Assembly (NCBI GenBank): GCA_026415035.1
Contig: JAOAHX010000002.1
Coordinates: 164,850-228,849, forward strand
Direction: 5' to 3'
Source: Thermodesulfobacteriota bacterium
GTDB lineage: Bacteria; Desulfobacterota; BSN033; UBA1163
Length of the DNA stretch: 64,000 nucleotides
This document shows positions 37,931 through 63,196 of the stretch, in pieces. The translations under genes were made by a program, and so were the position numbers. Numbering within the stretch: the stretch's first letter is position 1; every line of letters starts with the position of its first letter. A model generated the notes under the pieces. That model was not told the DNA's origin, made no database searches, and saw only the letters and a program-made list of their open reading frames with translations.

Positions 37931-39307
37931 ATGGATTTTTTCTTCAATCCCAATGGCATTGCGGTGGTGGGAGCCACACCCGAAGCAAACCGAGGGGGAA
38001 GGAATCTCCTTGCCAATCTCCTCTTTGGCTATCGGGGTCCCATCTACCCGGTCAACCCGAAATACGAAGAGGTCCTCGGGTTGAAATGTTACCCAAAGGT
38101 ATCGGAGATCGAAGGCCCCCTCGACCTGGTCATCATCTTCGTCCCTGCGAGGAGCGTCCCTCAGATCCTTGAGGACTGCGCCGCCAAAGGCGTCCGGGGG
38201 GTCATCATCGAATCAGGGGGCTTCGCCGAGGTGGGTCCGGAAGGGAGACGGCTCCAGGAGGAATGCCTTTCCATTGCCAGGAAGGGAGGGATTCGGATCT
38301 GGGGCCCCAACTGCATGGGGATCATCGATACGGGAAGGCGTTACATCTTCTCTTTCGTCATTCCACAAGATATGCAGGAGGCCCTCCGGCCAGGCCGTAT
38401 CTCCCTGGTGGTCCAGAGCGGCCTCCTCTCGGGAGGGTTCATCATCACCCTCATGGGGAATAGGATCGTCGGCCTCTCCAAGGTCTGCTCCATCGGCAAC
38501 AAGAGCGACGTCAATGAAAATGAGATTCTCGAATACTTATTGGGAGATCCCTCGACGGAGGTGGTATGCCTCTACCTCGAATCCTTTGCCGACGGACGCC
38601 GCTTCTTCGAACTGGCCGCCTCTTCGGACAAACCCATCGTCTTATTAAAGGGGGGCAAAACCCCATCCGGAGCGAAAGCCTCCCTCAGCCATACGGCCTC
38701 GCTGGCCGGCCGTTACGAATTGATCAAGGGCATCCTAAAACAGGCCGGGGTGATCGAGGCGGAGGATTTCTTCGAGATGATGGACATCGCCAGGGTTCTT
38801 GAAAAGGGTTTCCATCTTAAGAAACCTAAAAGAGAAAGGCCGCGGATCGCCATCCTCACCTACAGCGGAGCCTCCGGGATCGTCACTTCAGACCATTTAG
38901 AACGACATGGCCTCGCTCTGGCCAATCTTTCTCCCCGGACCCTGAAGCGACTGAAAGCCCTCTCGCCGGATTGGATGCCGATCCAAAATCCTGTCGATTA
39001 CTGGCCTGCGATGGAAAAAAACGGCCCCCTCCTCACTTATCGGGAGGGGATATCGGCCCTCCATGACGATTCAGAGGTCGATGGGATCATCGTCCATCTC
39101 TATGCAGGGCATGGGGTCTGGCAGTTTGAGCCCAAGGCGATCCTTTCAGGGGTGAAAGATCCGAGGAAGCCGATTCTCTTCTGGTTGATCGGACCGGAGA
39201 AGATCCGGGAGGCGACCCGGCTCCCTTTGGAAGAGGAGGGCTGGCCCACCTTCTACGAGATCGGCCGGACCGTCCGGGCCATGGCCAGCCTCTTCGAAAG
39301 GGTCTGA
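37931..39307 (+). CDS. NDP-forming acyl-CoA synthetase alpha-subunit-like protein
   Basis: 458 residues. The CoA-binding Rossmann domain (IAVVGATPEANRGGRNLLANL, PIYPVNPKY, IRIWGPNCMGI) and two ligase-CoA domains are present. The phospho-His segment AKASLSHTASLAG is kept. The ATP-grasp beta domain is missing, so a separate beta subunit is needed for acyl-CoA + ADP/GDP + Pi to acid + ATP/GTP. No such gene is adjacent. The 3' end overlaps the convergent MNT-HEPN gene by 55 bp. Confidence 0.85.
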   Translation: MDFFFNPNGIAVVGATPEANRGGRNLLANLLFGYRGPIYPVNPKYEEVLGLKCYPKVSEIEGPLDLVIIFVPARSVPQILEDCAAKGVRGVIIESGGFAEVGPEGRRLQEECLSIARKGGIRIWGPNCMGIIDTGRRYIFSFVIPQDMQEALRPGRISLVVQSGLLSGGFIITLMGNRIVGLSKVCSIGNKSDVNENEILEYLLGDPSTEVVCLYLESFADGRRFFELAASSDKPIVLLKGGKTPSGAKASLSHTASLAGRYELIKGILKQAGVIEAEDFFEMMDIARVLEKGFHLKKPKRERPRIAILTYSGASGIVTSDHLERHGLALANLSPRTLKRLKALSPDWMPIQNPVDYWPAMEKNGPLLTYREGISALHDDSEVDGIIVHLYAGHGVWQFEPKAILSGVKDPRKPILFWLIGPEKIREATRLPLEEEGWPTFYEIGRTVRAMASLFERV

Positions 39308-40134
39308 GGAAGAGAGATTGGTTCATCTTTCTTCACGAAACGATCGATTTGAACGATGAACTGATCGAAATCTCCAAGGTTCTCCTTGCAGAGCTTGAAA
39401 AGCTCCCCATCGTTTATGAATCCATACCTGTGGATCAGGCTGTTTCTTAAGTCGGCAAGTCTTCTCAACTTATTCGCCAAATCAGGAGAGATGATCCCGT
39501 GCTCACCTCCCTTAACGATGCAATCGACATAACCCATACAGGCGATCCCTTTCACCCTCGCCAGCAGGTGCTGACATATATCTGTGATCGCCTCCACCTC
39601 CTCGATAAGGAGATACTTTAAGGCGAGGGGACTTCTCTTGTCGCGCAAAAAGGCATCCTCACCCAAGGCCAGTATCTCTTCGATCTGTCGCTTCATGGTG
39701 AGAATATCTTCTCTATCCTTTGCGATTCGGTCCTGGTCGAACACCGCTACCTCGAGGAATAGATTTCTGAAGTGGGAGTATTCCCTATAGCGTTTCCCGA
39801 CCTCCTCTATAAAACTGGCCCTTCTCCCTTCGCCCCTTGAAAAGAGGAGCTTTCCATCCCGGAGGACCACCGCTTGGAAGGCTACCGGCGCCTCATTGAT
39901 GACCTTGACCTCGACAGGGTCACCCAAGATTGCTGTTAATTTCGCAGAGAGATCTGATTCGTACGTGAGCTCTCCTTTCCCTTCGATGAAAAGGGCTACA
40001 TCGATGTCCCGAAAAGTCTGCGATTTGACGAAGGATCCATGGACATAACCAAACACGATCCCTAAGGCCTCGGAGGAGAGGGCCTCTTTCATCAGCCTCA
40101 ACAAGGCCTCTTTCTCCTCCGGTTTTAACACCAC
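39253..40134 (-). CDS. single-chain MNT nucleotidyltransferase-HEPN protein (fused MntA-HepT)
   Basis: 293 residues. Residues about 15-105 form a minimal nucleotidyltransferase domain with VHGSFVKSQTFRDIDVALF (G33-S34 and D43-x-D45), the MntA active site that AMPylates HepT. Residues about 140-275 form an all-helical HEPN (DUF86/HepT) domain with R230-NSLI-H235-R-Y237, the RX4HXY RNase motif. MntA and HepT are normally two proteins of a toxin-antitoxin pair (type VII); here one chain carries both. The DNA is less GC-rich than its neighbours, suggesting transfer. The start is GTG at 40134 without a clear site. Confidence 0.85.
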   Translation of the reverse strand: MVLKPEEKEALLRLMKEALSSEALGIVFGYVHGSFVKSQTFRDIDVALFIEGKGELTYESDLSAKLTAILGDPVEVKVINEAPVAFQAVVLRDGKLLFSRGEGRRASFIEEVGKRYREYSHFRNLFLEVAVFDQDRIAKDREDILTMKRQIEEILALGEDAFLRDKRSPLALKYLLIEEVEAITDICQHLLARVKGIACMGYVDCIVKGGEHGIISPDLANKLRRLADLRNSLIHRYGFINDGELFKLCKENLGDFDQFIVQIDRFVKKDEPISLPQTLSKRLAMARTVRPIS

Positions 40135-40278
40135 CGGTTTGAAAATCTCTTCTCTTTTAACGTCTCCATGGCTTCGAGGCCGTAGGCTCCGCTCCCTCGC
40201 AATGGGAGGATGGCCGTTGAGAGCGATTCGTCGCGGTGCTCCTCGGAATGCTCCGATTTTGTCGTTTGTTTTAAGATA

Positions 40279-40295
40279 CCAAAGCCATCCTTTGG
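40279..40295 (-). terminator. hairpin downstream of the BKACE gene
   Basis: CCAAAG/CTTTGG stem with loop GATGG (minus strand) and a weak T-containing tail, 26 bp after the BKACE stop. Possible operon end. Confidence 0.4.
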
Positions 40296-40320
40296 CTTCA
40301 AGGAGAGGTCATGAGGGGGG

Positions 40321-41148
40321 TTATTTAGGGGGCAGGCCGAGCAGGATACGGGCTTCCGATGGGGTGGCGATCTCCCGGCCGAATTCTTTTGAGATCCTCA
40401 CGACCCGTTCGACCAACTCGGCATTGCTCCTGGCCAGTCTCCCCTTCGAATAGTAGATGTTATCCTCGAGGCCGACCCGGACATGGCCGCCCATGGCCAT
40501 GGCCATCATCGCCATGGGGAGCTGCGCCTGTCCGATACCGATCACCGACCAGGTGGATCCTTTGGGGATGATTTCCGAGAGGTGGAGGAGCGATTTGGCC
40601 GTGGCCGACATCCCGCCGATGACGCCCAGGACGAACTGGAAATGGAGCGGGGCTTTGAGCAAGCCTTTTTCCATCAATCGGATGCAGGTCTCGACCATGC
40701 CGGCCTCGAAGACCTCGAGCTCGGGTTTGATGCCCTTTGCGAGGGTCTCCCTGGCCAGCCTCTCCAGAAAGTCGGGAGGGTTGAGGAAGACGAGATCCCT
40801 CATGTTGATGGAACCCGCATCGAAGGAGACCAACTCCGGCTGGAGGGCCAGAGGGGTGAGCCGCTCTTCGTAATCGAGGTTCCTTCCAGGGATTCCGCTC
40901 GTGGTGAGACAGAGGACCGCATCGGTCTCGCCTCGGATCCGATCGACCACTTCCTTGAAGAGGTGATAATCCTGTGTTCCCAATCCGGTCTTGGGATCTC
41001 TCACATGGACATGGAGGATGGATGCCCCGGCCCTCCATGCTTCGATCCCCGATCGGGCGATCTCTTCCGGAAGGATCGGGATGTAAGGGGTCTGCTCCCT
41101 TGTGATTCTCGATCCTGTGATCCCGACGCTGATGATCAGTTTCTCCAT
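40321..41148 (-). CDS. beta-keto acid cleavage enzyme (BKACE, DUF849)
   Basis: 275-residue TIM barrel of the BKACE family, which condenses a beta-keto acid with acetyl-CoA to give acetoacetate and a CoA ester. Zinc ligands lie in ASILHVHVRDPKTG, with ELEVFEAGM, FVLGVIGGMSATA and GGHVRVGLEDNIYY as family signatures. The first member characterised acts on 3-keto-5-aminohexanoate (lysine fermentation), but the family has many substrates. Last gene of the IclR-headed operon. The start at 41148 follows GAGG. Confidence 0.92.
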   Translation of the reverse strand: MEKLIISVGITGSRITREQTPYIPILPEEIARSGIEAWRAGASILHVHVRDPKTGLGTQDYHLFKEVVDRIRGETDAVLCLTTSGIPGRNLDYEERLTPLALQPELVSFDAGSINMRDLVFLNPPDFLERLARETLAKGIKPELEVFEAGMVETCIRLMEKGLLKAPLHFQFVLGVIGGMSATAKSLLHLSEIIPKGSTWSVIGIGQAQLPMAMMAMAMGGHVRVGLEDNIYYSKGRLARSNAELVERVVRISKEFGREIATPSEARILLGLPPK

Positions 41149-41158
41149 CCCAGAGACC

Positions 41159-41863
41159 TCACATTCCGAGATAGGCCTTTCGAATGTGTTCGTTGCCCAC
41201 CAGTTCCTGGGCCGTCCCCTGGAGGACGACCCGACCTGTCTCGAGGACATAGCCTCGATGGCAGTATTTCAAGGCCAGGGTTGCGTTCTGTTCGATCAGG
41301 ACCATGGTCACCTTTTCGGCATGGAGTTTTTGGAGGGTCCGGTAGATCTCTTTGGTGATTTTAGGCGAAAGGCCGAGGGAGAGTTCATCGAGGAGCAGGA
41401 GGGAGGGTTTGGACATCAGGGCCCGGCCGATGGCCAGCATCTGCTGCTCCCCGCCACTTAAGGTCCCGGCGATCTGCGCCTTTCTCTGATTCAATATGGG
41501 AAAGAGGCCGAAGACCCACCCCAGGGTCTCCTGGAGCATAGGCCTGGCCTTTGCCGGATAGGCCCCCATCTCAAGGTTCTCATAGACCGTCATATCCTTG
41601 AAGATCCTCCTTCCCTCTGGGACCGAAGAGATCCCCAGGGAGACGATCTCGTAGGAGGGCAGGCCAGTGATCTCCTTTCCCATAAAGGTAATGCTTCCCT
41701 TTTTAGGGGGATGGACACCGAGGATCGATTCCATCAGGGTCGTCTTGCCTGCCCCGTTCGCCCCGAGGACCGTGACGATCTCTCCTTTCTCGACCTTCAT
41801 CGTGAGATCCCAGAGGATCTGGGCCTCTCCCCGAAAGACGTCAATCCCATGGACTTCAAGCAT
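41159..41863 (-). CDS. livF: branched-chain-type ABC transporter ATP-binding protein LivF
   Basis: 234 residues. Walker A is [11 protein letters not shown], the signature LSGGEQQMLAIGRAL, and Walker B LLLLDELSLGL. LivF-specific SSVPEGRRIFKDMTVYENL is present. It energises uptake with LivG and the two permeases. It overlaps livG by 8 bp. Confidence 0.95.
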   Translation of the reverse strand: MLEVHGIDVFRGEAQILWDLTMKVEKGEIVTVLGANGAGKTTLMESILGVHPPKKGSITFMGKEITGLPSYEIVSLGISSVPEGRRIFKDMTVYENLEMGAYPAKARPMLQETLGWVFGLFPILNQRKAQIAGTLSGGEQQMLAIGRALMSKPSLLLLDELSLGLSPKITKEIYRTLQKLHAEKVTMVLIEQNATLALKYCHRGYVLETGRVVLQGTAQELVGNEHIRKAYLGM

Positions 41864-62324: not shown

Positions 62325-62738
62325 ATGAAGGATTTTAAAAGAGAGATCCAACGGATTGCCTCCCGGTATGGTCTCCAGATGATCTATGTTTTCGGGAGCA
62401 GGGCCAAAGAGGTTCTGGCCCTCGTCGAGGGAAGGATCGAACGGCTCTCTGCCGGCCCCTCCGATTTGGATATTGGGGTGAAACCCAACAAACCCCTTAC
62501 CGTGGAAGAGAAGGTTAGAATCGGCCTCTTCTTCGAAGACCTTTTCGAAGTGAACAGGGTCGATTTGATCGTCATTCCAGAAGCCCCCGTTTTCTTGGCC
62601 CTCGAAATCGTGACGGGGGAGATTCTTTATGTCCACGATTCCAGCTATGAAGCGGAGTATCAACTCTATATCATGAGGCAGGCAGCCGATCTTTTGCCCT
62701 ATGAACGGATGAAACAGAGAATGGTCATGGGCGATTGA
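62325..62738 (+). CDS. MNT nucleotidyltransferase (MntA-type antitoxin)
   Basis: 137 residues, minimal nucleotidyltransferase. MIYVFGSRAKEV (G24-S25) and PSDLDIGV (D47-x-D49) form the active site with an unusually long insert of about 20 residues between them. VDLIVIPEAP supplies the third acidic strand. In MntA-HepT systems this protein neutralises the HEPN RNase by AMPylation. The gene ends 2 bp before its HEPN partner. Lower GC than RNase R next door. Confidence 0.87.
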   Translation: MKDFKREIQRIASRYGLQMIYVFGSRAKEVLALVEGRIERLSAGPSDLDIGVKPNKPLTVEEKVRIGLFFEDLFEVNRVDLIVIPEAPVFLALEIVTGEILYVHDSSYEAEYQLYIMRQAADLLPYERMKQRMVMGD

Positions 62739-62740
62739 AG

Positions 62741-63196
62741 ATGAGTCCGGGAGAGATCGATCCAAAAGTGATTTCCCAGCGGGCCTTATGGATCCTCCAG
62801 ATGGCGGAGGCCATCCAGGACCTCCATCCGGAAGACAAAACCCTTTTTTTAGCCGACAGGCACAAAGTGGCAGCCGCAGAATCGTATTTAAGGCGGGCCT
62901 TGGAGGCCCTTTTTGATATGGGAAGACATATCCTTGCAAAAAAGTTCGCCTACCCGGCTACGGAATATAAAGAGATCGCAAAGGGCCTCTCTGAAAAGAA
63001 GGTTCTGGGATTAGAAGAGGCCACGTTGATGCGAGACATGGCAGGGTATCGAAACCGGATGGTCCACTTTTACCGTGAAATCACCCCCGAAGAACTTCAT
63101 GAGATATGTCTATATCATCTCGGTGAAATTAAACTCCTCTCCGATAAAATCGTCCAGTGGGTCAAGGATCATCAGGACAGACTCGGAAATCCTTAA
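62741..63196 (+). CDS. HEPN (DUF86/HepT) RNase toxin
   Basis: 151 residues, all helical. R104-NRMV-H109-F-Y111 is the RX4HXY active site of HepT. AAAESYLRRALEALFDMGRH is the conserved dimer helix. The start is ATG at 62741; an earlier TTG at 62735 overlaps the MNT stop. It forms the canonical two-gene type VII toxin-antitoxin pair with the preceding gene. Confidence 0.88.
   Translation: MSPGEIDPKVISQRALWILQMAEAIQDLHPEDKTLFLADRHKVAAAESYLRRALEALFDMGRHILAKKFAYPATEYKEIAKGLSEKKVLGLEEATLMRDMAGYRNRMVHFYREITPEELHEICLYHLGEIKLLSDKIVQWVKDHQDRLGNP

Follow-up and report, generated by a model that had tools for sequence, protein, structure and literature searches.

Identification of a fused MNT-HEPN gene

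The DNA analysed here (hereafter the window) is a stretch of 64,000 nucleotides from contig JAOAHX010000002.1 of a Thermodesulfobacteriota bacterium (assembly GCA_026415035.1). It contains a single minus-strand open reading frame (ORF) running from position 40134 to 39253, with 293 open codons and a GTG start, in which an MNT (MntA-like nucleotidyltransferase) domain is followed by a HEPN (HepT-like RNase) domain. An initial annotation had described MntA and HepT in one polypeptide at this position, naming no strand; the single frame carrying both domains bears this out for the minus strand, while the plus strand has several stops in the frame read. Pfam matches to both domains exceeded the curated cut-offs (Table 1). 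The C-terminal half scored 68.6 bits with the NCBIfam HepT toxin model, above the cut-off of 60; the N-terminal half scored 51.9 bits with the MntA antitoxin model, below its cut-off of 60, and the MNT proteins of the split relatives described below (56–58 bits) likewise fell just short of it. The window has 263 stop-to-stop frames of 100 amino acids or more, and among these only the fused ORF contained both the MNT and the HEPN motif; with the decisive domain E-values this indicates that their co-occurrence is not due to chance.

The residues G33, S34, D43 and D45 of the nucleotidyltransferase and R230, H235 and Y237 of the RX4HXY motif are where the initial annotation had placed them and, judged by alignment, both enzyme centres are kept in the fused chain. 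E75 aligns with a position that carries Asp or Glu in the majority of relatives, and probably serves as the third metal ligand of the MNT centre. The nucleotidyltransferase motif reads GSX8DXD, compared with the published GSX10DXD, with GS and DXD intact, and X8 is the usual spacing in the clade to which the protein aligns. The protein would thus work like a type VII system, but is not strictly of class I as defined by the GSX10DXD motif. The GSX8DXD clade of HepT-partner nucleotidyltransferases includes the MNT proteins of loci L030, L044, L023, L036 and L041, among others, and would be missed by motif scans for GSX10DXD.

In an AlphaFold2 model both domains were well formed (mean predicted local distance difference test score, pLDDT, 91). 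A short linker connects the long C-terminal MNT helix (residues 102–128) to the first HEPN helix (134–155); confidence was low near residues 121–133 (pLDDT 62 in block 121–130). Foldseek returned 34 PDB matches with E ≤ 0.001, all of them HEPN/MNT toxin-antitoxin chains except Bacillus subtilis YutE; type VII HEPN and MNT chains matched included 7ae6, 7ae9, 6m6w, 5yep and 7bxo. The only two-domain match among those listed was AAD(9), and it was poor (template modelling (TM) score 0.26, root-mean-square deviation 14 Å). The identity of the ORF as a fused type VII MntA/HepT module is supported by domain models and motifs as well as by fold matches and relatives.

Table 1. Features of the fused MNT-HEPN gene (positions in the window)
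Feature	Position	Strand	Details
Fused MNT-HEPN ORF	39253..40134	-	293 amino acids, GTG start
MNT (Polbeta, MntA-like nucleotidyltransferase) domain	39832..40062	-	residues 25-101; PF18765, 1.1e-11
HEPN (HepT-like RNase) domain	39346..39690	-	residues 149-263; PF01934, 3.1e-21; NCBIfam HepT over cut-off
Junction	39736..39756	-	residues ~127-133; net one base fewer than split relatives; low-confidence linker predicted
Former N-terminus	40135..40169	-	ATG at 40169 begins METLKEKRF.., homologous to METLTEKRFFKP in relatives
In-frame GTG (V131)	39742..39744	-	GAGG 5 nucleotides upstream; relic or working internal HEPN start
MNT catalytic G33-S34	40033-40038	-	coordinates, alignment
MNT catalytic D43	40006-40008	-	coordinates, alignment
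MNT catalytic D45	40000-40002	-	coordinates, alignment
MNT E75, probable third carboxylate	39910-39912	-	alignment
HEPN R230	39445-39447	-	RX4HXY motif
HEPN H235	39430-39432	-	RX4HXY motif
HEPN Y237, position of the AMP-acceptor Tyr	39424-39426	-	RX4HXY motif

Origin of the fused reading frame

Genome contigs and 395 phylum genomes were scanned for relatives. Three near relatives were identified, in G140 (L021/L030), G112 (L022/L032) and G305 (L031/L044), with 54–62% identity per domain, and in none of the three is the module a single frame. In G140 an MNT ORF (231–671) overlaps a HEPN ORF (649–1092), with MNT first and HEPN in the +1 frame, and G305 has the same layout on the minus strand (MNT 1342–896, HEPN 948–484); RX4HXY is present in both of these split HEPN proteins. 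The MNT end in G112 is the same as in G140, but HEPN stops after about 38 residues and is followed by unrelated sequence. This copy (L022, 4330–5165), in which MNT is intact, may have kept the antidote and lost the toxin, or may lie on a chimeric contig. More distant relatives of the fused module are likewise split. The possibility of two separate frames, raised in the initial annotation, thus applies to the relatives, whose frames are separate and overlapping, but not to the window, which has one. Because near and more distant relatives alike are split, the fused state is, on these alignments, derived; no second copy of this fusion was found among the 395 phylum genomes.

DNA alignments showed that the window copy differs from the split relatives by two net one-base deletions. 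The junction deletion falls just past the codons for HFRN(L/I)FL, at the gene overlap and outside any homopolymer, and puts HEPN in the MNT frame. The other lies inside a T-run near the start (TTTT in the window versus TTTTT in the relatives) and throws a conserved METL.EKRFF extension out of frame, so that this N-terminal extension is gone and a GTG start is forced. The former ATG would now yield a peptide of 14 residues, the stop of which overlaps the present GTG start. Since a 37% identical relative (L023) also starts near the same point as the fused ORF, the MNT core of the protein was not lost. Past the junction, the GTG codon of V131 is homologous to a GTG in G140 and lies one codon from an ATG in G305; GAGG or GGAG at a spacing of 4–10 precedes 14 of 201 internal ATG/GTG codons of neighbouring genes. 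Ribosomal or transcriptional frameshifting as a source of fusions in the split relatives was rejected: the T-run that precedes the junction in G140, ATTTTTTTA, runs into stops when read in the -1 frame, and in the +1 frame a TAG is met where the run ends.

At positions where G140 and G305 share a residue, 36 changes are private to the window branch, while all catalytic residues of MNT and HEPN and the acceptor Tyr are kept. Nucleotide changes by codon position were 18/15/29 and 20/7/35 for the window and 21/17/31 and 22/13/35 for G305, and the pattern of the window branch resembles those of the G140 and G305 branches. Codon pattern and kept catalytic residues suggest that the module was functional over most of the window branch.

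Genomic setting

The GC content of the fused ORF is 0.508, compared with a window mean of 0.571, at about the first percentile of 882-nucleotide segments. Reduced GC content and transfer had both been proposed in the initial annotation. Horizontal transfer is supported by the low GC content, by the absence of close homologues from the nine other genus genomes and by the nearest relatives belonging to other families of the phylum. A convergent gene for an acyl-CoA synthetase (37931–39307) overlaps the last 55 bases of the fused ORF, and a gene for a BKACE-type enzyme (40321–41250) lies on the other side, both named from the look of the sequence rather than by family search. When the nine other genus genomes were searched for both, all had the BKACE-type enzyme and eight had the acyl-CoA synthetase, and in none were the two side by side. 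The fused gene therefore sits at a synteny breakpoint (37931–41250), which fits its low GC content and foreign relatives. Release of the toxin by phage or stress, as suggested earlier, found no support: no defence genes were seen adjoining the fused gene, PADLOC gave no match and no phage homologue was found. Elsewhere in the window, an ordinary two-gene MntA/HepT pair with a 4-base overlap is encoded on the plus strand at 62325–62738 and 62735–63196; its HepT scored 76.5 bits with the NCBIfam HepT model and has RX4HXY.

Other fusions in the phylum

Among the approximately 150 strongest HepT-like matches listed, from 148 phylum genomes, two lay in frames of more than 250 amino acids, in G026 and G076. 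The former (L024) is a true MNT-HEPN fusion of independent origin, a single chain of 298 amino acids with both motifs; it lies within a run (188–2739) of further nucleotidyltransferase and HEPN-type genes. The 358-amino-acid frame in G076 was rejected as a second fusion, MNT and HEPN being in different frames of two overlapping genes, as was a Cytobacillus plasmid match across both domains, where a separate HEPN gene of 405 nucleotides is annotated. The search for other fusions that the initial annotation had proposed thus yielded one unrelated case and no second copy of the fusion in the window. L024 likewise had no fused relative in the 395 phylum genomes, and no conserved family was found for either fusion. 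MNT-HEPN fusions arise now and then, and the one in the window is a rare and sporadic variant of a toxin-antitoxin type common among bacteria; persistence of such fusions was not seen in the genomes searched.

Two possible readings: a self-silencing toxin-antitoxin chain or a decaying module

We favour, at about even chances, the reading that the ORF encodes a single-chain type VII (MntA/HepT) toxin-antitoxin that AMPylates its own HEPN Tyr and that arose by a one-base deletion in the gene overlap. Comparison with the relatives shows that this deletion joined the MNT and HEPN genes into one chain. The N-terminal MNT would use adenosine triphosphate to add adenosine monophosphate (AMP) to Y237, beside the RX4H RNase site of HEPN, acting either on its own chain or on the partner chain where two fused chains dimerise through HEPN. 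The RNase would be silenced as soon as it folds, with the antidote not separable from the toxin, and the internal GTG that has been retained (V131) might perhaps still yield some free HEPN. Silencing in cis, as the initial annotation had it, is plausible, and provided that the protein is made, self-AMPylation in cis would be its likeliest mode of action. The complete picture of a newly formed, working system with both centres active, a self-applied AMP lock and free toxin from the internal start we regard as rather unlikely.

The main rival is that the module is in early decay, two recent single-base deletions having harmed its expression and accidentally joined the genes into a frame with no selected function; we consider this quite possible, though on balance not probable. 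Several observations weigh for it and against a functional fusion. There are two indels within one gene, the second of which took away both the conserved start and the N-terminal extension. The GTG start that remains lacks a Shine-Dalgarno sequence. The fusion is a singleton in the 395 phylum genomes and nothing shows its persistence. Modules of this kind do decay in the same genome, in which three of 11 MNT domains contain internal stops (G000:C1:186974, C29:15695 and C10:12961), and the G112 copy has lost most of its HEPN gene. A functional fusion is also disfavoured by position 238, an invariant W in the near relatives and G in the window copy only, by the uncertain domain orientation in the AlphaFold2 model (predicted TM score 0.62) and by tethering to HEPN, which may hamper the C-terminal MNT helix that Shewanella oneidensis MntA needs for full activity. 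Branch-wide selection, moreover, says nothing about the time after fusion. Against decay stand the 293 open codons across both domains, the intact catalytic residues and a codon-position pattern like that of the split relatives; both indels also lie outside the domain cores, although this would be expected anyway in a find selected for intact domains.

An assembly or sequencing error, with two overlapping genes in the real organism and a base missing from the contig, is favoured by the near relatives all being split at the same point with one base more and by the N-terminal deletion lying in a homopolymer. The junction deletion does not, however, and a general indel problem is unlikely because all 82 ABC_tran (ABC-transporter) domains of the assembly are complete and uninterrupted by stops and the genes neighbouring the ORF look intact; we judge such an error improbable. 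Least credible is a repurposed nucleotidyltransferase with HEPN serving only to bind substrate, as proposed for fused HEPN domains generally (kanamycin nucleotidyltransferase, GlnD). AAD(9) aligns over both domains, but poorly, none of the RNase-site residues R, H and Y has been lost, and the pair from which the fusion arose was an ordinary toxin-antitoxin.

The initial annotation had overlooked the overlapping two-gene relatives, the second, N-terminal deletion that makes decay a real alternative and the MNT-HEPN fusions published earlier. Single-chain architecture as such is thus nothing new; what is less usual is that the fusion is derived and has both centres intact. If functional, the single-chain system would be a natural test of whether a toxin can be silenced in cis by an enzymatic antitoxin, and of the route by which two genes become one protein; if mere decay, it would show that such gene overlaps can fuse by accident.

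Comparison with known systems

MntA transfers AMP to the RX4HXY Tyr by means of its GSX10DXD motif, and toxin silencing in the pair that has been characterised is due to the MNT motif and to Tyr104 of RX4HXY (PMC7641770). The norm in type VII systems is separate, adjacent antitoxin and toxin genes, whereas the module in the window is one frame. Shewanella oneidensis MntA/HepT (SO_3165/SO_3166; PMC7641770) shares the HEPN RX4HXY with acceptor Tyr and the Pol-beta fold of MNT, but consists of two proteins in a 2:6 complex and has GSX10DXD; its biochemistry is proven, while that of the fused protein is predicted. The split modules of G140, G112 and G305 are closer, with the same domains, GSX8DXD and MNT first; they differ in that their two genes overlap, with HEPN read in the +1 frame, and in having a METL.EKRFF-like N-terminal extension.

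CapRel (PMC9712102), a fused toxin-antitoxin of another type, also holds toxin and antidote in one chain; its domains are unrelated, and a phage capsid protein serves as its activator, with no evidence of a parallel in the present case. Nucleotidyltransferases of the kanamycin/spectinomycin type have a C-terminal HEPN-like domain without RX4H, unlike the RX4HXY of the fused protein. L024 shares the single MNT-HEPN chain and RX4HXY, but has GSX10DXD and is only 27% identical to the fused protein. A HEPN-MNT fusion on plasmid pAgK84 was reported by Makarova et al. 2009 (PMC2701414), and Anantharaman et al. 2013 (PMC3710099) described HEPN domains of the DUF86 group (HEPN-M) as 'occasionally fused to MNT', the fused HEPN domains typically lacking the RNase residues. 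We found no characterisation of these surveyed fusions, which share the single-chain architecture. In the protein described here the RNase residues are present, which qualifies the published statement that MNT-fused HEPN domains typically lose them.
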